Below are positions 20 to 13,847 of a stretch of 14,047 nucleotides of DNA, piece after piece. The stretch is from Prevotella sp. (GTDB lineage: Bacteria; Bacteroidota; Bacteroidia; Bacteroidales; Bacteroidaceae). Made by a program: the position numbers and the translations under genes. The notes beneath the pieces are model-generated. The model was not told the DNA's origin. It searched no databases and saw only the letters and a list, made by a program, of their open reading frames with translations. The DNA lies in the NCBI GenBank assembly GCA_021204735.1, contig JAJPYV010000407.1, positions 1-14,047 on the forward strand, read 5' to 3'. How positions within the stretch are numbered: the stretch's first letter is position 1; every line of letters starts with the position of its first letter.

Positions 20-122
20 GAGCATTATCGCTTGGATTTTGACTTCTATGCTCTTGCAATTGGATTGCTGATATATTTACGGTGTAGGCGCAAATAAATA
101 ATAGAGTTATTAATCGTGTCAT
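20..122 (-). CDS. Partial secreted protein, N-terminus only (runs off contig)
   Basis: An ATG at 122-120 overlaps the TGA of the preceding four-helix-bundle gene (121-119) in the ATGA arrangement used twice elsewhere in this operon. The frame stays open to the window edge. Thirty-four codons are genomic, and the six beyond them come from the adapter. The start reads MTRLITLLFICAYTVNISA, then IQLQEHRSQNPSDNA: one basic residue, a hydrophobic core of about 12 residues, and a plausible signal peptidase I site after ISA near residue 19. This is therefore probably an exported protein, in keeping with the upstream enzymes. Too little remains to name a family. The position suggests another polysaccharide-utilisation enzyme or binding protein, but that is inference from context only. 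Confidence 0.55.
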
Positions 123-520
123 TTTTGAATGTATTGTTTTTGTTTTTTCAATTTGGCGTCTTTAAGCTCATTTTCCTTGGCGGTTTTTACTATTTTGACG
201 AGAATACTAATGATTTCATCATTGTCATGGAATATTGAGTTGTATTCCTCTTTTGAGAGGTATTTGGCGTCGTATAGTGTAGTGAGCCAATTCTCGGTCT
301 CGTTGGCCTCTTTCAGGGCGATTTGCATCTTGCTGATAAAATCAGGACGGCTTTGGGCAAATTGTGCTTCGGCTACGTTTGCCGCGATACTCGTGCCACT
401 CCGAAAAACTTGATCCAACATCCCTCTACCTTTCTTGTCGATTTTTTTGCTTTGCAAATAATCAACCATCTTGATGAGACGTCTATTGAATAAAGCTGCC
501 TTTTCGGAAATTATGCCCAT
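119..520 (-). CDS. Four-helix bundle protein (S23 / 23S rRNA intervening-sequence protein family)
   Basis: This 133-residue protein carries the family signature RSGTSIAANVAEAQ at residues 40-53, followed by FISKMQIALKEANETENWL at 61-79. Both are diagnostic of the four-helix-bundle family first seen in proteins encoded by 23S rRNA intervening sequences and related to the Avd accessory protein of diversity-generating retroelements. No signal peptide is visible and the C-terminus is lysine-rich, so it is probably cytosolic and may bind nucleic acid. The role of free-standing copies is not established. I chose the ATG at 520 because the family usually begins about 40 residues before the RSGTS motif. 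An upstream in-frame ATG at 619 would add 33 Tyr/Arg/Asn-rich residues that do not look like family sequence. It is the only non-secreted product in this run, follows a heptamer repeat, and its stop overlaps the next start. Confidence 0.85.
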   Translation of the reverse strand: MGIISEKAALFNRRLIKMVDYLQSKKIDKKGRGMLDQVFRSGTSIAANVAEAQFAQSRPDFISKMQIALKEANETENWLTTLYDAKYLSKEEYNSIFHDNDEIISILVKIVKTAKENELKDAKLKKQKQYIQK

Positions 521-613
521 AATATATGTTCTTATTCTATAATTTTTATAATTCTTATTCCTCCTGTAATATTGTGCAAAGCAAAGTGTTAATAGGAAAA
601 GTTTCGAGGAAAT

Positions 614-662
614 GCTCATTCTTCACTCTTCACTCTTCATTCTTCACTCTTCACTCTTCACT
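614..662. repeat. Seven-base tandem repeat (unit AGTGAAG on the minus strand)
   Basis: Six consecutive 7-base units occupy 621-662 (CTTCACT on the plus strand; the unit at 635-641 reads CTTCATT). A degenerate seventh copy, GCTCATT, lies at 614-620. The array sits between the GH78 fusion gene and the four-helix-bundle gene and overlaps the 3' end of the former: its last three residues (Ser-Glu-Glu) and its stop are encoded by repeat units. Because the period is not a multiple of three and each unit contains TGA, all three minus-strand frames close within 21 bases. Copy number may vary by replication slippage. Confidence 0.95.
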
Positions 663-3600
663 CAGTTCTACGTGTTTTATCCTCTGCCGTCTCCATGTAT
701 AAATACAGTGCAAATGTCCGTCTTCTGTCTGAATTATGGATGGATAGGAGTACTGACTGACAGGAGAGTCCTCAATGGTAATCCAGTGCTGCCAGTTTAC
801 GCCATCGTCAGAAATGAGCAGCGACAATGGGGTGCGCACGCCTTTTCCACTTTTTATTCCATGTGGTATCGGCTTTTCATTGCAAATCATAACATGTCTG
901 CCATCTCGGAGGGTAACTGCATCGAGACCGCTGTTGTTGTTCGGGGTGTCGATTAATTGGAGTTTGGACCAGGTAACACCATTATCTTTGCTGTACGTTA
1001 TTCCGATATGCTCACTGCGCGTGCGTGCAACGGCAGCAAGTGTGCCGTCGGAAAGTGTGATTATTGAAGGTTGGATTGCATCGACACTACTGTCAGCTTC
1101 CACGAAGTCGGTACGTTGCCACGACTTGCCGTTGTCATCGGAATACTCGAAATAGATACGCCATCCGCCTTTTTCAACACTCGTAGGAGCTATTAGTCTG
1201 CCGTTGGAGAGAATAGGCTTGTTCTTTACCGGACCGAGATAATTTTCCTGCAGTGGCTCACGCTTGCTCCATGTCTTGCCATTGTCTTTCGAGCGCACAA
1301 GCCAGCCTGTCCAGTCAGACACCGACTCTCCGATTTTGAAGTAAATCTGCAGTTCCCCATTAGGATTCTGGTAAACGACTGGATTCCAGCATGCCTTGCG
1401 CAACGTGTCGGAGAAGACACCATCGGCGACCATTTGCGGTGCTGTCCAGGTATCTGACCCCTTCGGCTTGCGTGACACCCAGATACACACATCAGGGTTG
1501 CGTTCCTTAGTACCTCCGAAATACGTCGCCACGAGGTCACCATTGGAAGCCTCTGCAATTGTAGCTGAGTGACATTCTGGGAAGGATGTCTGCTTATAAA
1601 GGAACTCATCGGTAATTATTGCCGCATCTCGCATAGGTATGTTGGCAGTGAAGTCGTAAGAGCCAGAGCCGATTTCCTTTTGCGAGTCGTCTGGGAAGAA
1701 AAGTAAAGCAGATGTGTTGGCAGGGATTTCCACGTGCCACAGCAGATTGCCGTTGGATTTGTGCCAGCGGCTCACAATGTCTCCATAGATAGAATGATAA
1801 GAAGCATCGATATCGTCAAGTTCATCCGTGAGGAAGTCTGGTTTCATTATAATGCGCTTAAAACCAGTGAACGTACTGTCGGAGCGTATTCCTGCCACAT
1901 CTTCGAAGATCCAGGAAAGCAGGTCTCCTAACAGCATAATGTGGTTGCCACTGTTCATAGCCGGGTCTGCCGTATCCCCGTTCCACAGTTCCCAAATCGT
2001 AGTAGCTCCCTTTTCAGTCATGTAGCCCCAGCTTGGATATTTTTTGTTGGTGGCAAGCAGCCAGGCAATATCAGAGCGTCCCATATCAGTGAGTGCATGC
2101 ATGAGCCACTGTACGCCGATTATGCCACATGAGATAAACCCATTGTTGAGTGTTATGATGTTCGTTATAATATTTTTCTGTACCTCTGAGCGCACGTAAT
2201 CATCGTCTATCATACCAAAAGTGAGAGGTAACAGGTTGGCTGTAACCGTATTGTTGCCATAGAACGTGCTGTCAGGATAAAGCAGTAGGCTCTCGCCTGG
2301 TAATACACTGCTGCCACGGTTTATGGAGAGGAATTTATCGTTGAAAGCAGTTTTGGTAATCTGTGCTTCTTTGTCAAACTCGTCTGCATCACTGTCATAT
2401 CCGAGAATGTTGGCGAACTTCTGCATCAATCTGTTCAGATGGTAATAGTACGCCGTAGCGATTAGTGTTCCGTCTGTGATGCGCGCCGGGTCTTTAGAAT
2501 GAATCAGCGAAGGCTCCTCAGGGGGCACACACCAGTCTCCATACTTGTCACGCGGCATAAGACCGTCTTTGCCATACTGATATTTAAGATGTGCTAACCA
2601 TTTCTTGACCGCAGGATAATATTTTTTGAGAGGAGCGATGTCACCATATTGGTTGTACATCATTTCCAATGAGAAGGGGAGCGTGGAGGGCCAAGTGACG
2701 TTATCAGAGAAATAGTTCCAATAAGCAGGAGCCACATCAGGGATGCAGCCATCTTCACGCTGCGACTCAACGATGTCTCTTGTCCACTTAGAATAGAGAT
2801 TATTGTTGTCGAAGAGAAACGCCTCACCGAAACAGCCACGTGCACGGTCGCCTAACCATGGTTGCCGCTCATCACGCTGTGGGCAATCCACTGGCATACC
2901 TTTATAATTGGAGAGAACTCCCCATACCGCATTATTGTAAATCTTGTTTACGATAGAATCACCACAAGAGAAGAAGCCTGTCTGCGCCATATCATCAGAT
3001 ACAACCTCTCCAATAACGTTATCAACGGAGAGAGATGGAATACCTGTTACCATGGCATAACGGAAACCATGATAAACAAAGGAAGGTGCCCACCATCTAT
3101 CTTTCTCCATGCCCGAAGGCACATATTTGTCGGTAGAGAGAGCATTGCGGAAATTGTCACGGTATAGATTGCCTGCAGAGTCGAGGGACTCGGCAAAACA
3201 GACAAAGACCGTATCGCCTGGAGAAGTGTTGTTGATGCAGAGACGGAGCCAACCCGCCATGTTCTGCCCCATGTCTACGAGGAAACCATCCCCCTGTTTT
3301 TTGACGGAGATAGGAGAGAGTGACTTGAGGACTCGCATATTCTCTGACATCGCTCCACGTAGGGTACCATCTGGAATAGCCGCACGTTCAGCAAAGAGCC
3401 AGGATGAATCGTCGTAGCCAACGCAAGACCAGTCGCCCAAATCTTTGCGCTCGTCATAGATCTCTCCATCGTACTCGTTGGCAGAGCGTATTGGTCCATC
3501 GGGAGTGAGTCGCCACTTATTGTCAGAAGATACGACAAATTTAGAACCGTCATCATAGAGAATTATGAGGTTAAGGCGCAACTTAGGGAAGCCGAAATTG

Positions 3601-4376
3601 TTGATTTTGTAGAGCTTCTTATTCTGCTGCATGGTAAAGAATCGGCCGTTGGAAAGAGTAACACCGATAGCATTATTGTCAGCGTTGAGCAAGTCGGTTA
3701 CATCGAATGCATTATAGAGCACTGTCTTGCGGTAATCGGTAGGAGCAGGAGCAAGGACTTGGTCGCCAATGCGCTTGCCATTGATGAACGCCTCGTAGAG
3801 CCCGAGCCCCGATATGTAGAGGGTGGCACGAGAAACCTGCTTGGAAACCTTGAATTCTGTACGAAGATAACGGGAAGACAGGCGGCTATGAACAGTAAGA
3901 CTGTCCCATGGCATCGCTTGGTCAAGCCCAATCCACTGCCCTTTCCAGTCTGATTCGTTGAGAAGTCCGATGTTCCAGGAAGCGATGTCACTCCAGTCGG
4001 AAGCACCTTGCGTGGTGTTGACTTGCACACGCCAGTAGCAACGGGTGTCACTTCGGAGTTCTTTGCCTGCGTAGGTAATCCACTGCGACTGGTCGGAGTT
4101 GGCGGTGACATCCCATAGGTCACCATCCAAAGCTTGCGCCTTGTCAGCAGACGAGGAAACGATTATATGATAAGAAGTCTGCATTACATCGTTCAAGTCA
4201 GAGACGATTTGCCAGCCCAAACGGGGATTTGGAGTGTCGATACTCATTGGGTTGAGCATGCGCTCCGTTCTTAAATCTGTTATGGAAACTGTGTAGGTTG
4301 GGTTTTTATCTTTGGCTATCGAAAAAGAGGATAGACAAAGCAAAACAATTGCTGTAAATATTGTTTTTCTTATCAT
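651..4376 (-). CDS. Bimodular glycosidase: GH78 alpha-L-rhamnosidase fused to GH33-type sialidase-like propeller
   Basis: The 1241-residue protein begins with a signal peptide (cleavage probably after FSIA, residue 21). Residues about 28-830 have the GH78 plan: fibronectin-like start (TDLRTERMLNPMSID), substrate-binding beta domains (GLGLYEAFINGKRIGDQ, 190-206), then an (alpha/alpha)6 catalytic barrel. The barrel carries the acidic signature DCPQRDERQPWLGD (497-510, with the likely general acid Glu503) and the likely base Glu796 in ATTIWELWNGD. From about 918 a second enzyme-like domain starts (FPECHSATIAEA, 932-943; FGGTKERNPDV). It has four Asp-box motifs (SKDNGKTW 1029, SDDNGKSW 1079, SKDNGVTW 1129, SDDGVNW 1189), the mark of sialidase-type beta-propellers (BNR). 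GH78 removes terminal alpha-L-rhamnose, and GH33 includes sialidases and Kdo hydrolases. Joined, they suit Rha-(1,5)-Kdo, the RG-II chain C. That pairing is inference. It follows the GH140 gene by 21 bp. Confidence 0.88.
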   Translation of the reverse strand: MIRKTIFTAIVLLCLSSFSIAKDKNPTYTVSITDLRTERMLNPMSIDTPNPRLGWQIVSDLNDVMQTSYHIIVSSSADKAQALDGDLWDVTANSDQSQWITYAGKELRSDTRCYWRVQVNTTQGASDWSDIASWNIGLLNESDWKGQWIGLDQAMPWDSLTVHSRLSSRYLRTEFKVSKQVSRATLYISGLGLYEAFINGKRIGDQVLAPAPTDYRKTVLYNAFDVTDLLNADNNAIGVTLSNGRFFTMQQNKKLYKINNFGFPKLRLNLIILYDDGSKFVVSSDNKWRLTPDGPIRSANEYDGEIYDERKDLGDWSCVGYDDSSWLFAERAAIPDGTLRGAMSENMRVLKSLSPISVKKQGDGFLVDMGQNMAGWLRLCINNTSPGDTVFVCFAESLDSAGNLYRDNFRNALSTDKYVPSGMEKDRWWAPSFVYHGFRYAMVTGIPSLSVDNVIGEVVSDDMAQTGFFSCGDSIVNKIYNNAVWGVLSNYKGMPVDCPQRDERQPWLGDRARGCFGEAFLFDNNNLYSKWTRDIVESQREDGCIPDVAPAYWNYFSDNVTWPSTLPFSLEMMYNQYGDIAPLKKYYPAVKKWLAHLKYQYGKDGLMPRDKYGDWCVPPEEPSLIHSKDPARITDGTLIATAYYYHLNRLMQKFANILGYDSDADEFDKEAQITKTAFNDKFLSINRGSSVLPGESLLLYPDSTFYGNNTVTANLLPLTFGMIDDDYVRSEVQKNIITNIITLNNGFISCGIIGVQWLMHALTDMGRSDIAWLLATNKKYPSWGYMTEKGATTIWELWNGDTADPAMNSGNHIMLLGDLLSWIFEDVAGIRSDSTFTGFKRIIMKPDFLTDELDDIDASYHSIYGDIVSRWHKSNGNLLWHVEIPANTSALLFFPDDSQKEIGSGSYDFTANIPMRDAAIITDEFLYKQTSFPECHSATIAEASNGDLVATYFGGTKERNPDVCIWVSRKPKGSDTWTAPQMVADGVFSDTLRKACWNPVVYQNPNGELQIYFKIGESVSDWTGWLVRSKDNGKTWSKREPLQENYLGPVKNKPILSNGRLIAPTSVEKGGWRIYFEYSDDNGKSWQRTDFVEADSSVDAIQPSIITLSDGTLAAVARTRSEHIGITYSKDNGVTWSKLQLIDTPNNNSGLDAVTLRDGRHVMICNEKPIPHGIKSGKGVRTPLSLLISDDGVNWQHWITIEDSPVSQYSYPSIIQTEDGHLHCIYTWRRQRIKHVELSEE

Positions 4377-4397
4377 ACTAATCGCTTAAGTTTTATT

Positions 4398-5864
4398 TTA
4401 ATGCTTTTCAGTAAGTTGCGTGGCAGTTGTGGAGATGTAGTCCTTGACTGTGTCGATTGCAATGAGTACACGGTCACTGCCGCGGAGATATGCAGCATCG
4501 TATGAGAACTCAGTAACTTTTGAGTCGAACTCTCCTAAATAGGTCAGAGAGCCGTCAGACGGGTTCATCCACCAAACATTCTTTTTACTACCACTGATTT
4601 TGGAAAGGTCGATAGACATCGGTTTTCCACTGTAATTGTAGACAAGCAGATAATCGTTGCCCCTTGTAGCTATGATTCGGTCGTAACGCTCACCATTCTG
4701 ACTTGCTATGACACTTTGGTCTGGTATTCTGTCAGTGAATGGGAGGGAGAGAATGAGCCATTTGAGATATTTCATTTGATTATAACCTGGATCCTTGATT
4801 GCATCCCACCAAGGTGTCTCAGCTCCGTATGAAGCGAGCAGACCAGGACGGATAAACTGCATAATAGAATTATGTCCGTAGGTATGCCCGAAAGACCCGG
4901 CGAAAACTGACCAGTAGGCGTAGCGTCTGACGTCATAGTCCATCCAGCGTGGTGCTTGCAAGTCGTGCAGTCCCTGTGGAATGTCCTCGTATGAAGGTTC
5001 ACCGTCGAGAACAGGACGGATAGGTGACTTCTCCCAACTAAGGTCAACATAGCGCCAGTTGTCTTCCTCCGTATTCTCCTTAATTGTATAATCACCGTCA
5101 CCGTTACGCTGTCCATAACGCCTATGTCCGCTTTGGAACATATTGAAGTCGAGCCAATCGCGGTCATTGAACCAGCGTGCGGAGGTTGTCCTGCCACGCG
5201 GGTGGAAAGTCATGAGGTGGTCAGGATCAATCTTCTTGATAGCGTTAGCCATGGCATCCCATATTTCAGGTGACTTATCACCCATGATATCGCCACCAAT
5301 CATCCAAATGATATTAGGCTTGTCCTTGTAGCGTTCTGCAAGGAACTTGCCGAGTGCCTCACCCTTCTTGACGTCCATTTGCGGAATCATGGAGCCCCAA
5401 ATGCAATCCATAGCGATGTATATTCCGTTGCGCTCTGCCACATCAACGATATAATCGAGGTGCTCCCAATAGCCGTAAACGCCATTCTTGGAGACCTTGG
5501 AAAAGTCGAACTCAGCATTGTTGGCGGCATATCCGTAGATATTGAAGGTAGGTATAGCGTTAAGCACCTGAATCTGTTCTACATTGTAGCCAGCTTTTCG
5601 CTCTGCATCCAAATAGAACTCTGCTTCCTCTCGGTTCAGACGTTCTGGTAATAGCCATGCTGTATTCCCCAACCAGAAAAATGGGGTACCGTTCTCGTGA
5701 ACGAGAAATTTGCTGTTTTCAGACACAATGAGTTTTCCATTATCCCACGGCTTGTAAATGCCGTCGGCGGCGATGGAGAGGGATGCCAAAAGAAAAAATA
5801 GCCCCCAAGCCCCCCTAAGGGGGATGTTCAAGAGGGTGGAAATAATGTTTGATATTTTTTTCAT
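4398..5864 (-). CDS. GH140 apiosidase-like enzyme (DUF4038)
   Basis: This 488-residue secreted protein has a DUF4038-type TIM barrel: GKLIVSENSKFLVHENGTPFFWLGNTAW (43-70), KAGYNVEQIQVL (90-101), IIWMIGGDIMG (185-195), HPRGR (221-225) and PVLDGEPSYE (284-293). A C-terminal beta domain follows (about 385-470; YDRIIATRGNDYLLVYNYSGKP). Asp192 and Glu289 sit in the places of the acid/base and nucleophile of the characterised GH140 apiosidase BT1012. As I recall, those are Asp187 and Glu284, the same spacing of 97 residues. Known GH140 members cleave the apiose-galacturonic acid bond that joins RG-II side chains A and B to the backbone. The signal peptide is odd: a REP-like palindrome encodes part of its n-region (residues 13-21), leaving the hydrophobic core GLFFLLASLSIA intact. 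It lies 92 bp after the GH95 gene. Confidence 0.88.
   Translation of the reverse strand: MKKISNIISTLLNIPLRGAWGLFFLLASLSIAADGIYKPWDNGKLIVSENSKFLVHENGTPFFWLGNTAWLLPERLNREEAEFYLDAERKAGYNVEQIQVLNAIPTFNIYGYAANNAEFDFSKVSKNGVYGYWEHLDYIVDVAERNGIYIAMDCIWGSMIPQMDVKKGEALGKFLAERYKDKPNIIWMIGGDIMGDKSPEIWDAMANAIKKIDPDHLMTFHPRGRTTSARWFNDRDWLDFNMFQSGHRRYGQRNGDGDYTIKENTEEDNWRYVDLSWEKSPIRPVLDGEPSYEDIPQGLHDLQAPRWMDYDVRRYAYWSVFAGSFGHTYGHNSIMQFIRPGLLASYGAETPWWDAIKDPGYNQMKYLKWLILSLPFTDRIPDQSVIASQNGERYDRIIATRGNDYLLVYNYSGKPMSIDLSKISGSKKNVWWMNPSDGSLTYLGEFDSKVTEFSYDAAYLRGSDRVLIAIDTVKDYISTTATQLTEKH
5797..5826. repeat. G/C-rich REP-like palindrome inside the GH140 signal-peptide coding region
   Basis: The plus strand here reads AATAGCCCCCAAGC, then CCCCCTAAGGGGGATG. 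The CCCCC/GGGGG arms at 5811-5815 and 5819-5823 can form a short strong stem around a 3-base loop, with a further C-run just outside. C-run/TAA/G-run units of this kind occur dispersed in Bacteroidetes genomes (recalled, not searched). On the coding strand it encodes Asn-Ile-Pro-Leu-Arg-Gly-Ala-Trp-Gly, which interrupts an otherwise ordinary signal peptide. Its composition contrasts with the A/T-rich sequence on both sides. Confidence 0.65.
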
Positions 5865-5898
5865 AACAATTTTTATTTAATCATTTTTTGTCTTTGTA

Positions 5899-5919
5899 GG
5901 GACATAATTTATTATGCCC
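5899..5919. repeat. REP-like hairpin in the GH95-GH140 gap
   Basis: GGGACATAA at 5899-5907 pairs with TTATGCCC at 5912-5919, giving eight base pairs with one bulged A and a 4-base TTTA loop. It lies in the only sizeable gap (5865-5956, 92 bp) between enzyme genes. It has no T-run after it on the minus strand, so it does not look like an intrinsic terminator. It could be a dispersed REP element or a message-processing or stability hairpin between the two genes. Confidence 0.6.
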
Positions 5920-5956
5920 GAATATCACTTAGAGATGAACATAATTAACATTCACG

Positions 5957-8413
5957 TTATTTTGCGTTAAGAGTATATGTCTCGCCCTTCTTTGTGGCAA
6001 GGTCATAGAGATAAGTTTTTTGAAGTTCGGACAGAGATTCAAGGGCATCAGGGTAATTGATTTGTTGTTTCACGTTTGTAGGCGTGGAAAACAGAGGATT
6101 GCTGTTCTCACCCTTTGCCACTTTCAGTCCCTTGCCTGTGAGAGGAACGGCAGAACGGATACGCAGGTTGCCGCCAACTTCCGACTTAATTACAGTTTGC
6201 GTAATCTTGTTATCTTTCCAGTCAATAGACACCTCAAATCCACCACGCACTTTAAGTCCGCTTACAGAACCGTCTGACCATGCATCAGGTAAGGCAGGCA
6301 AGAGATAGACGAAACCATCGTGGCTCTGTACGAGCATTTCTGCGATACCTGCCGTACAACCGAAATTGCCATCAATCTGGAATGGCGGATGGGCATCGAA
6401 TAAGTTAGGATACGTACCACCTTTTTTCAGCTCGTTGCGCACTAATGTCAATTGGTCGCCTATGAGACGGTATGCATGGTTGCCGTCAAGCAATCGAGAC
6501 CACAAGCACACTTTCCAGCCCATGCTCCAACCAGTGGACGGGTCGCCACGGTGGATGAGTGATGTGCGTGCGGCGGCAGTTAACTCAGGTGTGCGGAAAG
6601 GAGAAATCTGGTTGCTTGGATAAAGACCATAGAGATGGGAAACATGACGGTGTGTGTCGTCAGGGTCGTCCCAATCGTCTTTCCATTCCTGCAACTGTCC
6701 CCAGCGGCCTGTTTGCAGAGGAACAAGTCCGTCGAGTTTGTTCTTTAAACTGTCTATGATTGTTGTTTCTGATGCCTTACCCAATATGTCAGCCGCAGCG
6801 ATTACATGGTTGAACAGATCAAAAATCAGTTCGTTGTCCATTGTCACGCCTGCTGCAGTGGTAGCATTATACGGATGTTGGTTTTCAGGAGACAAGCTCG
6901 GGCACACAAGCCAATAGGTATCTGTCGGGTCTTTCACCATCACTTGGTTGAGGAAACGGGCGGCATTCTCCATTATCGGATAAACTTCAGCAAGGAAATC
7001 CTTGTCGCCTGTGTATAGATAATGTTCCCATAAGTGTTGGCAGAGCCATGCTCCTCCAGTACACCACAGACCTGATGGCGCCTTGTCGATAGCTCCTGTA
7101 ACACGCCATAAGTCGGTGTTGTGGTGAAGAACCCAACCAGTTGCGCCATACATTATGTCTGCCGACTCATGACCAGTTACACTTACGTCTTTGATGAGAG
7201 AGAACAGAGGTTGGGTAAGTTCCGATAAGTTCGTTACCTCTGCGGGCCAGTAGTTCATCTCAAGGTTGATGTTGCAAGTGTATTTGCTGTCCCACGAAGG
7301 CAATATCTTATCGTTCCACATACCTTGCAGGGTAGGTGGTTGTGTGCCTGGTTGCGAGGTGCAGATGAGCAGATATCTACCGAACTGGAAATATGTTTCA
7401 ACAAGATGCAAGTCATTATGCTCACTAAACTGTTCTACCCGTTTGTCTGTTGTGATGTTAGCATATTCATCATTTCCGAGATTTAGTTTCACACGGTCAA
7501 ACTGACTCTTGTATTTAGCTAAATGAGCGGCTTTCATGTCATTGTAGTCAGTTTTCAACGCATTGCGCAATATTTCTTCCGACAAGATGGTATCGTTTAT
7601 GCTGATGTCATTGTAATTCTTGAAGTTGGTTGCAATAGTGATATAGATAATAGCCTCGTCAGCATTCTTAATTTGAAGTACACCATCCTCGCTCTGCATG
7701 GTGCCACCATTGATTTTGGCTGTGGCACGACCTGTGAACGTAATCTTACCTTTCAGTCCTTCATGCTGACCGCTGATTCCATAAAGAACAATCTCATTGT
7801 TTTCGGAGCAAACGGAAACATCTTGATGAGGTGAGGTGAATATAGCATTGCATGTTATCATACCTTTTTTGCTTGCGGTGAGACGCACCGTGATAACGTT
7901 GTCTGACAAAGAAGATATGTACTCACGCTGGTATGTAACGCCGTCAGCAGTATATCGTGTTATAGAGAGAGCAGAGTCAAGACTAAGTTCACGGTAATAA
8001 TTTGTGTATTCACCTTGTCCAGGAAAACTTATATATATATCACCAAAGGGCTGGTATGGCATTCCATGGTTGGTGCTCGATTGTACATGAGCGGTAGCAA
8101 GGTCTTGGGCTTCCTTATATTTACCTTCCCATACAAGTTGTCTTACTTTTGGCAAGTATTCTTTTGCCTCTGGGTTGGCGTTGTTGTTCGGCCTGCCGCC
8201 CCAAATCGTCTCCTCGTTCAACTGCATCCTTTCCACTGATGGTTTCCCGAAAATCATCGCAGCGAGTTTACTGTTAGCGATAGGCAACGCTTCTGTCCAG
8301 ACAGCAGCTGGGGCATCATACCATAAAATATGGTTGTTCTCCGAATAAAGATTGTCTTGTGCCGCACAGCAAATTGTTGCGAATATAGCGGCAGTCAATA
8401 TTGCTTTTCTCAT
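5957..8413 (-). CDS. GH95 glycosidase, predicted alpha-L-galactosidase (or alpha-L-fucosidase)
   Basis: The 818-residue protein starts with a signal peptide (MRKAILTAAIFATICCAAQ, cleavage near 18). It then shows the GH95 N-terminal beta-sandwich signature (LWYDAPAAVWTEALPIANSKLAAMIFG, 30-56; LNEETIWGGRP, 65-75). The (alpha/alpha)6 catalytic domain carries TCNINLEMNYWPAE (379-392), GQLQEWKDDWDDP (572-584), HRHVSHLYGLYP (588-599) and HPPFQIDGNFG (675-685). Asn381, Asn383 and Asp681 match the catalytic Asn pair and Asp of the family; Glu576 in QEW is a candidate acid. The residue two before the first Asn is Thr379. In the fucosidase AfcA the same place holds His, and as I recall Thr is found in members preferring L-galactose. 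L-galactose is the terminal sugar of RG-II chain A, so galactosidase activity is the better guess. Its start overlaps the esterase stop by ATGA. Confidence 0.9.
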   Translation of the reverse strand: MRKAILTAAIFATICCAAQDNLYSENNHILWYDAPAAVWTEALPIANSKLAAMIFGKPSVERMQLNEETIWGGRPNNNANPEAKEYLPKVRQLVWEGKYKEAQDLATAHVQSSTNHGMPYQPFGDIYISFPGQGEYTNYYRELSLDSALSITRYTADGVTYQREYISSLSDNVITVRLTASKKGMITCNAIFTSPHQDVSVCSENNEIVLYGISGQHEGLKGKITFTGRATAKINGGTMQSEDGVLQIKNADEAIIYITIATNFKNYNDISINDTILSEEILRNALKTDYNDMKAAHLAKYKSQFDRVKLNLGNDEYANITTDKRVEQFSEHNDLHLVETYFQFGRYLLICTSQPGTQPPTLQGMWNDKILPSWDSKYTCNINLEMNYWPAEVTNLSELTQPLFSLIKDVSVTGHESADIMYGATGWVLHHNTDLWRVTGAIDKAPSGLWCTGGAWLCQHLWEHYLYTGDKDFLAEVYPIMENAARFLNQVMVKDPTDTYWLVCPSLSPENQHPYNATTAAGVTMDNELIFDLFNHVIAAADILGKASETTIIDSLKNKLDGLVPLQTGRWGQLQEWKDDWDDPDDTHRHVSHLYGLYPSNQISPFRTPELTAAARTSLIHRGDPSTGWSMGWKVCLWSRLLDGNHAYRLIGDQLTLVRNELKKGGTYPNLFDAHPPFQIDGNFGCTAGIAEMLVQSHDGFVYLLPALPDAWSDGSVSGLKVRGGFEVSIDWKDNKITQTVIKSEVGGNLRIRSAVPLTGKGLKVAKGENSNPLFSTPTNVKQQINYPDALESLSELQKTYLYDLATKKGETYTLNAK

Positions 8414-9705
8414 CTCTTGTAAGGTGTAAAACGTAAATCTTTTTCTTCCTCTATCTTAATTTTGTCTTCATCGAGCATTGAGGCATCGAGACCAAATGTT
8501 TCTATGAAAAACTTATATACAGCGTTTCTCTTGTTAGGTCCGAAGTCGTGGATTTCACCAGGCAGGTGAATGTTTTGTACGTTGTCTTCTTTGCCATAGA
8601 AACCATATATTCTCTTGATAAAAGGATATTCAAGGTTAGGCGTTGTAACTGTCCAGTCTCCATCATCGCTCACAATCATCATCGGACGGGGAGCGAACGT
8701 GGCAGCAAGTTCGGGGTTACATGTGCCACCACCAGAAAGTTGGATAGGCATGCCACTCTCACATGGGCAGCCACCGTCAAACCATGATGACATACTGACT
8801 ACAGGGTTGGAAGCCGTGTAGCGGTCATCTATTACAGATAGTAGCACTGTCTGCGAGCCGCCGCCGGAACCGCCGTTCACTCCAATTCTTTCTGTATCTA
8901 CGTCCTTGCGCTTTATCATCCAGTCGAGTATTCTGATACCATTGAGAGCCTGCATAACATGAGCCTCTGATGTCTGGTGAGCTGCCTCGCCAACCTCATC
9001 CTCCGATTCGCCCCAGCCCCACAGGTCATAATCAACGCAGATAGCTCCCATGCGTGCCAGCGTACCGAGACGCTGTTGTTGCACGGCGCCATAACGCCCA
9101 TTGCTGAAATGCCCATTAGGACATATAATCAGTGGGTGTTTTCCTTTGGTAGTGGGAGCATAGATAGAACCGCATACGGTATGGTTGTTAACTGTCTTCA
9201 AACGAAAATTTTGTACTGTATAGCCTTCATACGTCCTTATTTCGCTATATTCTGGTGCTTCTTGCGAGCATTGTGCAAGCAATGGGTCAATACCCAAATT
9301 CTCCCTTACTTCTTTTTTCAGAATCGCTTTTCGTGCTTCCCATGTGTCCAAATCATTGTAAAGTGACGAGAGATATGTGATGAGTTTCACACCATCCTCT
9401 TGTACTCTACGTGGATATTCATAATACTTTATTTTATAGAAAGTATCATTTTGCTTAGATGCCACGAAGTCGAAAGGTGCTGTTATGTTTCTCAGCGTCT
9501 CTTCAAGAGAGTAGGGGCGTATACGGAAATCAGCATAATTCAACATCAAGCCCGATGTGTCGGCATCGCATTGGAGTTTTACACCAAACTGTTTTGATAC
9601 CTTATTAATCACCTCACTAAGTGGTTTGGCGTATTTTGTCTCAAAGGTTTGCGCCCCTGCGATAGTGCTGATAAACAACATCACAGGTAAGATTAGTTTT
9701 TTCAT
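8410..9705 (-). CDS. Secreted alpha/beta-hydrolase carbohydrate esterase with STN-like N-terminal domain (CE19/CE15-like)
   Basis: This is a 431-residue exported protein (signal peptide MKKLILPVMLFISTIAGA, cut before QT). Residues 21-96 (FETKYAKPLSEVINKVSKQF, then GVKLQCDADTSGLMLNY, SLEETLRNI and FYKIKYYEY) have the pattern of an STN or secretin-type domain. A helical linker (105-140) leads to an alpha/beta hydrolase with HPLIICPNGH (190-199), DYDLWGWGES (225-234), the nucleophile elbow GVNGGSGGGSQT (Ser280), SDDGDW (346-351, candidate acid) and GEIHDFG (His386). The GGCPCESG segment (311-318) with Cys329 may form a disulfide. Such esterases include pectin methylesterase (CE19, founder BT1017 of the RG-II locus) and glucuronoyl methylesterase (CE15). 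In this setting it probably removes methyl or acetyl esters from RG-II. The exact family is uncertain. ATGA overlaps join it to both neighbours. Confidence 0.82.
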   Translation of the reverse strand: MKKLILPVMLFISTIAGAQTFETKYAKPLSEVINKVSKQFGVKLQCDADTSGLMLNYADFRIRPYSLEETLRNITAPFDFVASKQNDTFYKIKYYEYPRRVQEDGVKLITYLSSLYNDLDTWEARKAILKKEVRENLGIDPLLAQCSQEAPEYSEIRTYEGYTVQNFRLKTVNNHTVCGSIYAPTTKGKHPLIICPNGHFSNGRYGAVQQQRLGTLARMGAICVDYDLWGWGESEDEVGEAAHQTSEAHVMQALNGIRILDWMIKRKDVDTERIGVNGGSGGGSQTVLLSVIDDRYTASNPVVSMSSWFDGGCPCESGMPIQLSGGGTCNPELAATFAPRPMMIVSDDGDWTVTTPNLEYPFIKRIYGFYGKEDNVQNIHLPGEIHDFGPNKRNAVYKFFIETFGLDASMLDEDKIKIEEEKDLRFTPYKR

Positions 9706-12700
9706 TTGCTTGTTCCTTTATATGTAAGTTTTCCAAGATCTTCACGGCTTGCCACCTCTTTGCCATTGACAAGTAGAATAAGTCCTTTGCCCTGATGGTA
9801 GTTTTGTCCATCTTTGTCATATAATATGGTGATGACGTTGCCACGATAGTTGACGTTGTCAAGACAGAAGTGATCCCACGTGTTCTCAGGCAAGAGAGGA
9901 TTGATTACAATACTTCCATCAGCCTGTGGCCTTAGTCCAACAATTCCTGTGATTATTAAGTCAGCAAAGGTAGAATGGTTGTAGTAACGACTGCGTTCCT
10001 GGTCACCCATAAGCCATGCACCATTGGTCTCATCAAGGTATTCCCCGATGTATGGCCTACCTCTTTTGTGCTGACTTTCCACATATAGTTTCATCTGCCT
10101 GAAGAAAGTGCTGTCTGTCAGAACTGGCGAAGGATAGTCATTCAAATAATTTGCCATTGCCGTGAGAGTCTGGGAAGTTGCGAAAGGCCATATCGCACCG
10201 TCCCACTCACAAGTTCCCGTTCCATGACTACGGAACTCTGGATGTCGCCTTTCGGCAGTAGTAAGTCCGTAAGGTGCTGAAAAACCTTTCTCATCGTTTA
10301 TCTGTTTCCATGCCTCGTCATATTTGTTTTCATCATCAGGCAAATTGAAATACCACGGAATGAAACCTATTGCTTCCCGTACGGCAGCAAGGGTGTCACC
10401 ACGCATTGTCTCAAAGAAGGAATGATTCTCGTTCCACAGTTTTGTCTTGATTAGTGATTTCAATTCATCAGCATCTTGGTCGTATTTAATTGCTTTATTA
10501 GAATCTCCCGCCAATGTGCTCATTGCGGACAAGGCACGGGCATTGCCATACATATAACTGTTGATGGTAGGACGAGCGTATTGCTTTTTGCGACCACCAC
10601 TGATACTTTCCTCCATACCGTCCTGTACGTCACCCTGCCAATAAAGTCCGTTTTCCAACCTGTTACTGCCTTTCCAACGGGCATATTCTTCTTCTAAAGA
10701 AGGCATTAATCCTAACATGTATGTCGTGTCTCCCAATACTTTGTATGCCTCGTAAACGGCGGCAGGATTCCATGAACTGAACCTCTCCATTTTTTTCATT
10801 GCCTTACCGTCGTTGCCATAGTACCATGTGTTGAGGATTTGGTGGATATAGGTGGTGTCTCTTAGCCAGCGTGTCTCCATAATATGATGGCCGATTGCAC
10901 AAGCTATCAAGTTGTATTTGTCAGCGTATGACCGATTAACGAGAAATTCTGTCATGCCATAGCCTACAGGTGTGCGTTTGATATGTTTTCTCAATGACCA
11001 CCAACGGAAGTAATACATCTCTTCGAAATCTTTATCTGGACAGTCAAAGAGTGGTATGTTTTTGCTGAGCCATTCTGAAGATTCACTGTTGGGAATGTCT
11101 GTAACGATGTTTTCATCCTCCATCTCGTTGAAATAGTTTACATGATAAGCATAATCATCGTATTTCAATACAGAAGACGTGGCGTCAGCATCGGATGATG
11201 ATGTCTTGAAGTTTGCTATGTAGAAAGTTGCCATTTGGTCTTCCTCATCGGCACGGGGCATATCTTCTGTTTGGTCAGCTGGAGTCTCGAAATCTGGCTT
11301 TTCAAACACGTCGCCTGTGCGGAAAACAACTCTTGTGATTGCCTCTAATGGTGTGTCAAACATCCTTGAGGTAACTTTTTTGCCGTTAACAAAATAAGTA
11401 CCGACATGACCGTCAATAGACAGTTTTGCTGTGATATGGTATTCCTTGTTGGGCTCGTAATTTTTTACCAAACCGCCATATCGTGCACCTCCCTTAACTT
11501 TGATTGTTGACAATGAGTCAATCATGATACGAGTGCACATATTTCCTTTGTCGTCAAGAAACTCGATATTTAGTTGCCCATGGTCGTTCTGTGCTGCTTT
11601 TACGTCAAAGTCAACCGTCAATTCCTTTGTCGCAGGAATAACTTTTTCAACTCTTGCATAGTCGTATGGATCTTTGTCACTAAGAACAAGCCATTTGCCA
11701 TTAAGTGAAACCGGAGCCCAAAGAGATGAATAGATATTCCAGTCAGTCATGTCTGCCAACTTGTCGTATTTGTCGAAACTTACATCGGCTTGCTCTGTGG
11801 CAGTAAGTTTTACTGGTACGGGTACGCTTGCCACCCAGATATCCTCCTTGTTCATGCTGTATGTTACCCACAGTTTGTTGTCGGGAGGTGTGCCGTTACC
11901 CTCCAAAATACCACGAGTGTATTGCGGCCCGTAACTTTTATATAGTCCCCAATGGCGTTCAGGGGTAACCTCGCCACTAACCAAATTCAGTGTGGTGTAT
12001 TCCAGACCATCAGCACTTAGTGATATTGCGAGAGGCCAACGGTATTCAGCTGGGTTGTAGACGGTTGCGTATGTTCCGTCAGATAGTCGTTGTCCCCATA
12101 TTTTAGCGTTGGAATTTACGAAACCATGGGCTCTGTAAACAGGCGTGCGCCACGTGTTGCCACCATCGCTGCTCATGCTTGTCAACGCATGTTTCCACAG
12201 AGCTACTTTTCGACCGTCAGGGAGGGTATATCCGCAAAATGCCTTGTAAGGAGTCTTTAATGGAAGTATGTCATCATTGCGGTCTGCTTCTTCTGCCCAC
12301 TGCATCCTAATCATCGGGTCGGCAATGAGTTCTTCGCAGGCTTTCACAAATTCCTTGTCCTTTGATTTTTTGTAATTTGGAAAATCAGTGTTTTTTTCAC
12401 TGAATCCATGGTTGTAATAGATGAAATATATGTCTCCGAATGAACCGTCGGCCTTTATCTCTCTTACCACACGCCCTATACCGTTGCCGTCATTAGGATC
12501 ATCGGTTGGTGTGAGGGCCACTCCATAATTGCCTATGGCTATCAACTTGTTGCTCTTTGACACGAAGAAACCAACTCTCTGGTGCATTATTGCTTTCAGA
12601 TTCTTTGCCTCCACACCAGGGATGTTCGGCTTGGTGAATCCGTCGGGCACATTATATTCAGGGAACAGTTCCACTTGTTCGCTCCATGTGTAACCGTCTG

Positions 12701-13847
12701 TGGAAGTCTGTAACATCGTCTTGCCAGGAGGTTCATGCTCACTTCGTGGGTCAGTGAGATAGTGTATGTAAAACTTGCCGTTCCAATATGCCATCATAGG
12801 TTGGTGGTTGTATAGCCAGCCCTGTTCACTGCGCCATATCTGTATGTTGTGTGCTCCAATTACAGGGGAAAGTCCACCGTCATGTCTTGATGGTGTTGCT
12901 ACTGTTTTTCCAGTGTAATGAACGGCATCCCTATTTTCTTTTATCAGATTGTTCACTATTTCTTCTGATGCCATGAACACCGTGCCATGCTTATGCCCTA
13001 TAGGAAAGTTTACTACTCCTGTCTGGTCCTCAAATTCGATAAAGTCCTTTGTGCGCGAAGCTCCGTAGATACCATGGCGGTAGGAGTCGTAGTAGATATA
13101 ATACCAGCCGTCAACGTATGCTGTGGAAGGGCCCTCGCAAAAACTCTCTGTAAACGGCTCTGAAGCCTTGCTCCACGGACCGTAAGGTGACTTTGCGAAT
13201 GCCACCTTGATGTTGCGCTCTTTACGTGAGTTGTCTTTCAGAACCATCACGTAGTCATCGTTGCCACGTTTTACCAATGTCGCATCAATGCAACTGAAAT
13301 CAGGATCGATAAGAAGGGCTGCATTACTGAACGTCTTGAAGTCTTTTGTTGTTACATAATATAATCTATGGTTGTTGTCGTGGTCTTCTAAATAATCGGG
13401 AAACTTACCAGGAATACAAGAAGCCCAAACAATCATGAACTGTTTTTTAACGTCATCATAAAACAGTTCAGGTGCCCAGACATTTACTGTTGTTGGGTCG
13501 TCCATAACGGTGATGAATCTCTCCTCACTCCAGTGGATAAGGTCTTTTGATGATGCATAACCGAATCCCTTATCTCCTTTCCAGCTTGATGTCCAAACCA
13601 AATGAAATGTCCCATCGGGACCTTTCACTATCGATGGGTCACGCATAACTTTCTGATTGCCCACCTCCGGATGTAGGAAAGTTCCTTGAATGGAGTCCCA
13701 GCGTATGCCATCATAACTGTAAATGAACCGTAATCCTTCATTTGCCGGTTCATGGAAAGAAGTGGAAACATAAATGTCTTTCGCATAGGAAATATAAGGC
13801 ATTATCGCTGCTATGGAAACGATAAGGCATAACAAGACTTTTTTCAT
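9702..13847 (-). CDS. Giant multi-domain glycosidase: GH43-like propeller, sialidase-like (GH143-type) propeller, beta-sandwich, six-hairpin (GH142-type) domain
   Basis: This 1381-residue secreted protein (signal peptide cut after ISYA, residue 22) is the first gene of the operon. Residues 25-300 look like a GH43-type five-bladed propeller with VMRDPSIV (Asp70), NVWAPELF (122-129), SCIDATLV (Asp188) and FCEGPS (Glu238), which match the family's base, modulator and acid. Residues about 310-680 resemble a sialidase-type propeller (TSTDGYTWSE 381-390; SMSSDGGNTW 557-566; VTYSMNKEDIWV 661-672). Residues 700-880 form a concanavalin-like beta-sandwich with an acidic loop (848-870). Residues 895-1381 form an (alpha/alpha)6 domain (SLRKHIKRTPVGYG, GLYWQGDVQDGMEES, HGTGTCEWDGAIWPF, LDETNGAWLMGDQERSRYYN). 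The plan recalls BT1020 of the B. thetaiotaomicron RG-II locus, with GH143 (DHA hydrolase) and GH142 (beta-L-arabinofuranosidase) in one chain. The substrate assignment is inference. Confidence 0.82.
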   Translation of the reverse strand: MKKVLLCLIVSIAAIMPYISYAKDIYVSTSFHEPANEGLRFIYSYDGIRWDSIQGTFLHPEVGNQKVMRDPSIVKGPDGTFHLVWTSSWKGDKGFGYASSKDLIHWSEERFITVMDDPTTVNVWAPELFYDDVKKQFMIVWASCIPGKFPDYLEDHDNNHRLYYVTTKDFKTFSNAALLIDPDFSCIDATLVKRGNDDYVMVLKDNSRKERNIKVAFAKSPYGPWSKASEPFTESFCEGPSTAYVDGWYYIYYDSYRHGIYGASRTKDFIEFEDQTGVVNFPIGHKHGTVFMASEEIVNNLIKENRDAVHYTGKTVATPSRHDGGLSPVIGAHNIQIWRSEQGWLYNHQPMMAYWNGKFYIHYLTDPRSEHEPPGKTMLQTSTDGYTWSEQVELFPEYNVPDGFTKPNIPGVEAKNLKAIMHQRVGFFVSKSNKLIAIGNYGVALTPTDDPNDGNGIGRVVREIKADGSFGDIYFIYYNHGFSEKNTDFPNYKKSKDKEFVKACEELIADPMIRMQWAEEADRNDDILPLKTPYKAFCGYTLPDGRKVALWKHALTSMSSDGGNTWRTPVYRAHGFVNSNAKIWGQRLSDGTYATVYNPAEYRWPLAISLSADGLEYTTLNLVSGEVTPERHWGLYKSYGPQYTRGILEGNGTPPDNKLWVTYSMNKEDIWVASVPVPVKLTATEQADVSFDKYDKLADMTDWNIYSSLWAPVSLNGKWLVLSDKDPYDYARVEKVIPATKELTVDFDVKAAQNDHGQLNIEFLDDKGNMCTRIMIDSLSTIKVKGGARYGGLVKNYEPNKEYHITAKLSIDGHVGTYFVNGKKVTSRMFDTPLEAITRVVFRTGDVFEKPDFETPADQTEDMPRADEEDQMATFYIANFKTSSSDADATSSVLKYDDYAYHVNYFNEMEDENIVTDIPNSESSEWLSKNIPLFDCPDKDFEEMYYFRWWSLRKHIKRTPVGYGMTEFLVNRSYADKYNLIACAIGHHIMETRWLRDTTYIHQILNTWYYGNDGKAMKKMERFSSWNPAAVYEAYKVLGDTTYMLGLMPSLEEEYARWKGSNRLENGLYWQGDVQDGMEESISGGRKKQYARPTINSYMYGNARALSAMSTLAGDSNKAIKYDQDADELKSLIKTKLWNENHSFFETMRGDTLAAVREAIGFIPWYFNLPDDENKYDEAWKQINDEKGFSAPYGLTTAERRHPEFRSHGTGTCEWDGAIWPFATSQTLTAMANYLNDYPSPVLTDSTFFRQMKLYVESQHKRGRPYIGEYLDETNGAWLMGDQERSRYYNHSTFADLIITGIVGLRPQADGSIVINPLLPENTWDHFCLDNVNYRGNVITILYDKDGQNYHQGKGLILLVNGKEVASREDLGKLTYKGTSK

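Follow-up and report, generated by a model that had tools for sequence, protein, structure and literature searches.

Rhamnogalacturonan-II (RG-II) is the most complex plant pectin, and the pathway for its degradation has been worked out mainly in Bacteroides thetaiotaomicron. The RG-II enzymes of that organism, BT1010 to BT1021, were reportedly described by Ndeh et al. in 2017. The window analyzed here, a whole contig (C329) of 14,047 nucleotides from a Prevotella sp. assembly of 2.74 Mb (438 contigs, 81% complete), raises the question of whether five adjacent genes can serve as a dedicated RG-II side-chain cassette and how the domain arrangement of the first of them is to be read. We predict, with a probability of about 0.88, that the window encodes a co-transcribed RG-II side-chain cassette whose first enzyme has three active sites and whose products are likely periplasmic, the activities being assigned from sequence. 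The RG-II pathway itself is known; the domain arrangement of the first gene appears to be new as far as openly available papers show, no description of the fusion having been found in their titles or accessible passages.

Organization of the cassette

The cassette proper extends from position 651 to 13847 and comprises five open reading frames (ORFs), all on the minus strand, in the transcription order GH43-GH143-GH142 protein, BT1017-type esterase, GH95, GH140, and GH78 with a sialidase-like domain. Consecutive ORFs overlap by 4 bases at 9702 to 9705 and again at 8410 to 8413 or are separated by gaps of 92 and 21 bases, and the cassette is probably co-transcribed. Over its first 400 bases, the operon strand contains no match to a Bacteroidetes promoter pattern (TTTG, 17 to 23 bases, TAnnTTT). 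A first-pass annotation of this DNA had described GH140, GH95, GH78 with a GH33-like domain, a GH142/GH143-like protein, and an esterase as adjacent on one strand, and the five ORFs and their families bear this out. The extent that it gave, 20 to 13847, is too wide at the left end, where positions 119 to 619 hold an unrelated gene, a 23S rRNA IVP/four-helix-bundle gene lying behind the cassette; a 73%-identical relative also lies behind the cassette in the nearest relative genome (L012).

The complete five-gene order recurs in 20 of 80 loci (the best 80 of 535 relatives), and the set is therefore not a chance grouping; some of the other loci stop at a contig border. Xylanibacter rarus 109 (L003), X. 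caecicola PCHR (L011), and Marseilla massiliensis An824 (L005) share the five genes, their order, and the fusion, differing from the window only in sequence and in small gaps; asnA adjoins the cassette in M. massiliensis, and one contig of X. caecicola has genes for GH106 and GH139 as well, within about 20 kb. At another locus (L036:14237-18025), a single frame of 1,262 amino acids (aa) joins the esterase to GH95, which makes this a further fusion within the cassette.

The first enzyme

The first gene (9702 to 13847, minus strand) is a single open frame of 1,381 aa in which a GH43-type module is fused to a BT1020-type GH143/GH142 enzyme. The GH43-type module (residues 23 to 298; 12954 to 13781, minus strand) can be assigned to that family by its five-bladed propeller fold and its two aspartates and one glutamate (D70, D188, and E238), which are invariant. 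It is followed, on the same strand, by a GH143-type propeller (about residues 305 to 690; 11778 to 12935; PF24067, the BT_1020-like propeller), a sialidase-like CBM domain (residues 703 to 859; 11271 to 11741; PF22585), and a GH142-type catalytic part (residues 977 to 1365; 9753 to 10919; PF22422, the MGH1-like hydrolase domain, and PF03633). Structure 5mqr, on which the GH143 and GH142 limits also rest, aligned over residues 305 to 1375 with 1663 bits and, together with PF24067, PF22585, and PF22422, places this part in GH143/GH142 of the BT1020 type. The family type had thus been recognized at first pass, and what had been overlooked was the N-terminal GH43-type module and hence side chain F.

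The GH43 module is joined to the GH143/GH142 part without a linker, the domain matches lying 0 to 4 residues apart in the fused rows printed. A 700-residue model of the joined propellers was poor (pLDDT 65.4, pTM 0.50) and is the basis for no claim about their geometry. The module is 57 to 68% identical to the unfused GH43 proteins of related loci, and we regard it as the putative counterpart of BT1021 by its position beside a BT1020-type gene. The cassette could also act on RG-II with a GH43 module that cuts a different arabinofuranose or mainly binds or places the GH143/GH142 part. Activities within GH43 are diverse, the best structural neighbors of the module (arabinan, xylan, and other GH43 enzymes) differ little in Z, the BT1021 comparison is positional, and the leader type of the fused module has changed. 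Nevertheless, the module holds the place of BT1021 in the unfused loci, resembles their proteins to the degree given above, and keeps all three acids, which makes this alternative improbable, if the strongest of those considered, and favors a module directed at chain F.

The other four enzymes

The second gene (8410 to 9705, minus strand) encodes a predicted BT1017-type pectin methylesterase of 431 aa, a type that we take to be CE19. Its AXE1 Pfam match is weak, but structure 6goc, which the accessible text of its paper (PMC7939467) identifies as BT1017, aligned over residues 17 to 422 with 601 bits. S280, D350, and H386 stand in motifs matching a Ser-Asp-His triad, apparently displaced by 2 throughout relative to S282, D352, and H388 of the published enzyme (PMC7939467, as far as accessible), and the catalytic module is of the BT1017 type; what had been called a pectin-type esterase is thus an alpha/beta-hydrolase of that type. 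The C-terminal DUF3826 domain is absent, there being no match after residue 422 by Pfam or in the 6goc alignment. It is evidently not needed, since the central module of BT1017 alone was active according to the passages available (PMC7939467).

The GH95 enzyme (5957 to 8413, minus strand; 818 aa) is placed in its family by PF22124, PF14498, and PF21307 and is a predicted alpha-L-galactosidase, its nearest structure being 4ufc (854 bits), the alpha-L-galactosidase BACOVA_03438 (PMC10063614, accessible passages). It has Thr, as does 4ufc, at the Thr/His position, but by the accessible parts of two papers (PMC8245568 and PMC10063614) this position alone does not set specificity, and its use for that purpose was dropped.

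The fourth gene (4398 to 5864, minus strand) encodes a predicted GH140 apiosidase of 488 aa that matches PF13204 (Apiosidase) with 365.8 bits against a cutoff of 26.5 and has solved GH140-type relatives (4qfu, 730 bits; 3kzs/5msy, 710 bits). Structure 5msy is presumably BT1012. The last gene (651 to 4376, minus strand; 1,241 aa; PF17389, PF08531, and PF13088; 6i60) joins a predicted GH78 rhamnosidase to a sialidase-like domain (residues 946 to 1224; 705 to 1541, minus strand). This domain matches PF13088 (BNR_2) and sialidase structures at E values down to 8.8e-14; the solved sialidases align mainly to residues 97 to 297 of a 311-residue piece, i.e., to the later part of the domain.

We take chain D to be the target of GH143/GH142, the L-galactose of chain A that of GH95, and chain C that of the GH78/sialidase-like protein. 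Assuming these targets, the first protein would clear the backbone of the chain F arabinofuranose through its GH43 module and would remove chain D through its GH143 and GH142 modules. The esterase would take off methyl esters, chain A would lose its L-galactose to GH95, chains A and B would lose their apiose base to GH140, and the Rha-Kdo chain C would fall to GH78 with its sialidase-like domain, with substrate supplied by a SusC/SusD pair encoded elsewhere. In the passages available of one paper (PMC7939467), BT1021 removes chain F, BT1012 is an apiosidase, and BT1017 is a methylesterase.

Partner genes and genomic setting

Neither ORF nor Pfam search found a SusC/SusD pair in the window, which is therefore not by itself a polysaccharide utilization locus. 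Partner genes lie on other contigs. Contig C385 encodes GH127, GH141, an MFS transporter, GH78-like and GH138-like proteins, GH137-GH2 split between two frames, and the beginning of a GH2 gene, and its end overlaps by exactly 55 bases with that of C383, which holds GH2 parts and GH106. The domain related to 5mt2/5mui is taken here to be GH137, and its neighbor on C385 to be GH138. C221 encodes a SusD of the RG-II type, 62% identical to that of the Prevotella lacticifex locus, and C431 encodes a BT1019-type GH78 and a DUF5703 protein, assigned to GH139 because the GH139 paper (PMC12282258, accessible part) is the source of both its solved relatives, 9hyq and 9hmb. The GH137-GH2 frames (G000:C385:27549-31435; 970 and 325 aa) correspond to one frame in relatives, and the split is possibly an assembly error. 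No close BT1018 counterpart was found in the genome, the best GH28, on C71, being 43% identical to that of Bacteroides luti.

Among seven hand-chosen genomes, each brought in by the cassette, GH106, GH137-GH2, GH138-like, and GH139 occurred in all seven and GH141 and the RG-II-type SusD in six; the SusD was not found in the nearest relative genome, which is fragmented. P. lacticifex (G006:C1, about 574 to 630 kb) also has the fused GH43-GH143-GH142 protein, GH95, GH140, and the GH78-sialidase-like protein, which share a single region of about 55 kb with SusC/SusD, GH106, GH137-GH2, and GH139, whereas here the genes are spread over at least four contigs. At its upstream end the window shares a 64-base stretch, one mismatch included, with the start of C99, whose first gene is asnA, pointing away as it does in L012 and M. 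massiliensis. Such an overlap is not proof alone, but the agreement with relatives suggests that C99 likely adjoins the window; the fused gene is therefore probably the first of the operon, with no SusC/SusD adjoining.

GH140, GH143/GH142, GH137-GH2, GH139, and GH141 share RG-II as a common substrate. Relatives of all of them occur together in this genome, and this makes it very unlikely that the cassette is a general pectin or arabinan system (RG-I, xylan) in which RG-II-like families meet by chance, even though GH78, GH95, and GH43 are found in many systems and the nearest GH95 structure is BACOVA_03438 (PMC10063614, as accessible). An RG-II target had been proposed at first pass, with other RG-II genes expected in the same, Prevotella-type genome. 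The closest solved relatives, which include BT1017, a BT1020-type enzyme, and apiosidases, support the target; GH106, GH137-GH2, GH138-like, GH139, GH141, GH127, and the RG-II-type SusD on other contigs supply the expected genes; and the nearest relatives agree on the genome type.

Gene order in unfused loci

The unfused order is GH43, GH143/GH142, GH78 (BT1019 type), GH28 (BT1018 type), esterase, GH95, GH140, and GH78 with the sialidase-like domain. GH43 and GH143/GH142 are separate, neighboring genes in Bacteroides-type loci, and in all 20 unfused loci the former immediately precedes the latter; in 13 of the 20 (L035, L037, L048, L121, L123, L124, L126, L127, L129, L134, L137, L138, and L139, with L121 counted although other ORFs intervene) the esterase, GH95, and GH140 follow these two in the unfused order. 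Of the remaining seven, L046 and L058 are cut by the contig end, L128 and L135 are without a recognized esterase in place, and in L122, L125, and L140 GH95 and GH140 do not adjoin the esterase. The window thus presents the unfused order minus some genes, with two genes fused. BT1018-type GH28 (≥50% identity) occurs in none of 72 fused loci, and BT1019-type GH78 (≥40% identity) in 29 of the 72, mostly in other fused clades. A condensed cassette, as had been claimed, is therefore what we find; the reordering also claimed is not supported against the unfused relatives compared here, 13 of whose 20 loci share the order of the window.

BT1010 to BT1021 of B. thetaiotaomicron, as described in the literature, are of the same types (apiosidase, methylesterase, GH95, GH78 with a sialidase-like domain, and GH143/GH142), with a GH43-type gene at BT1021. 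In contrast, the window has GH43 and GH143/GH142 as one protein, and its block is without BT1018- and BT1019-type genes, DUF3826, or adjoining SusC/SusD. Bacteroides luti DSM 26991 (L048) has the order GH43, GH143/142, (GH78, GH28), esterase, GH95, GH140; unlike the window, it has a separate GH43 gene with a lipoprotein-type leader, the two extra genes, and adjoining SusC/SusD. One unfused GH43 (L122, G156:C1:1275178-1276026) has a TGA inside the matched stretch.

Distribution of the fusion

Among the best 80 of 535 relative loci, 72 are fused, 5 are unfused, and 3 are cut at a contig end, a sample that favors fused proteins because the query was fused. Rows L130 to L133, copies of L037, L003, L006, and L043, were dropped, and L079 to L081 and L136, in which the GH43 part is cut off or unrecognized, stand outside the fused and unfused counts. 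Sampling 398 genomes evenly across the genus yielded 145 GH143 matches, distributed over 143 genomes, with frames of at least 1,290 aa (95), 1,080 to 1,289 aa (31), about 600 aa (12), and other lengths (7), length being only a proxy for the fused state. The three long frames opened besides the window (G742, G212, and G128) were all fused, and the four opened from the middle class (G771, G641, G011, and G156) were all unfused. Three of the 12 short frames (L145, L146, and L147, from G684, G513, and G414) were opened and proved to be paralogues about 41% identical, without a GH142 part and in other surroundings; this class was set aside from the account of the fusion. In a family-wide draw, 52 of 399 genomes had a match to the GH43 module at an E value of 1e-60; of the matches with at least 57% identity, those of four genomes, including this one, were fused, and the rest lay in frames of 309 to 363 aa. 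A protein collection, searched for proteins 0.55 to 1.75 times the length of the first protein, yielded 1,009 relatives at an E value of 1e-30, with lengths of 1,372 to 1,390 aa among the 120 matches listed.

An assembly or frameshift artefact, conceivable in an assembly of 438 contigs with GH137-GH2 split in two frames, is refuted in practice and has a negligible probability, as 72 of the 80 loci, from other genomes, show the single frame, including the isolates X. rarus, X. caecicola, M. massiliensis, and P. lacticifex. Many Prevotella-type genomes from gut and rumen show the RG-II pathway in a compact form. The fusion is an independent argument for cooperation between the chain F and chain D enzymes, and one protein with three predicted pectin activities is directly testable.

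Evolution and cellular location

The tree of the GH143/GH142 part, built from 55 rows (35 of the 73 fused and all 20 unfused), requires three changes and rejects a single fused clade (p-AU, 2e-8), the fused clade of the window standing beside an unfused row and other fused clades elsewhere; a tree of all 97 rows requires the same number of changes. In the GH43-domain tree of the same 55 rows, the fused rows group together with 90% support and one change, but this tree does not reject the other grouping (P = 0.21 and 0.23). The fusion therefore likely arose repeatedly, as one tree indicates and the GH43 tree does not confirm; alternatively, there may have been one old fusion with later splits, or an exchange of parts.

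A lipobox-like sequence precedes the GH43 domain in 18 of the 19 unfused proteins having the anchor motif (L128, without it, is outside the 19). The same loose and admittedly crude pattern occurs in 10 of 72 fused proteins, where by eye the cysteine lies inside the hydrophobic stretch. Lipoprotein-type leaders thus appear to be the rule in unfused GH43 proteins and are lacking in most of the fused ones. Judged from their leaders, which look like ordinary signal peptides, the cassette enzymes are likely periplasmic.

We tentatively suggest, as a speculation with the odds against it, that selection in Prevotella-type bacteria has more than once favored a chain F arabinofuranosidase joined to the chain D enzyme and freed of its lipid anchor, because a single soluble protein could then make three cuts per docking event on adjacent sugars of the backbone and so expose it to the apiosidase. 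Distant relatives of the GH43 module (46 to 48% identity; G358, G400, G271, G247, G151, and G179) lie in frames of 971 to 1,027 aa, and the module may therefore be fused to other partners elsewhere.
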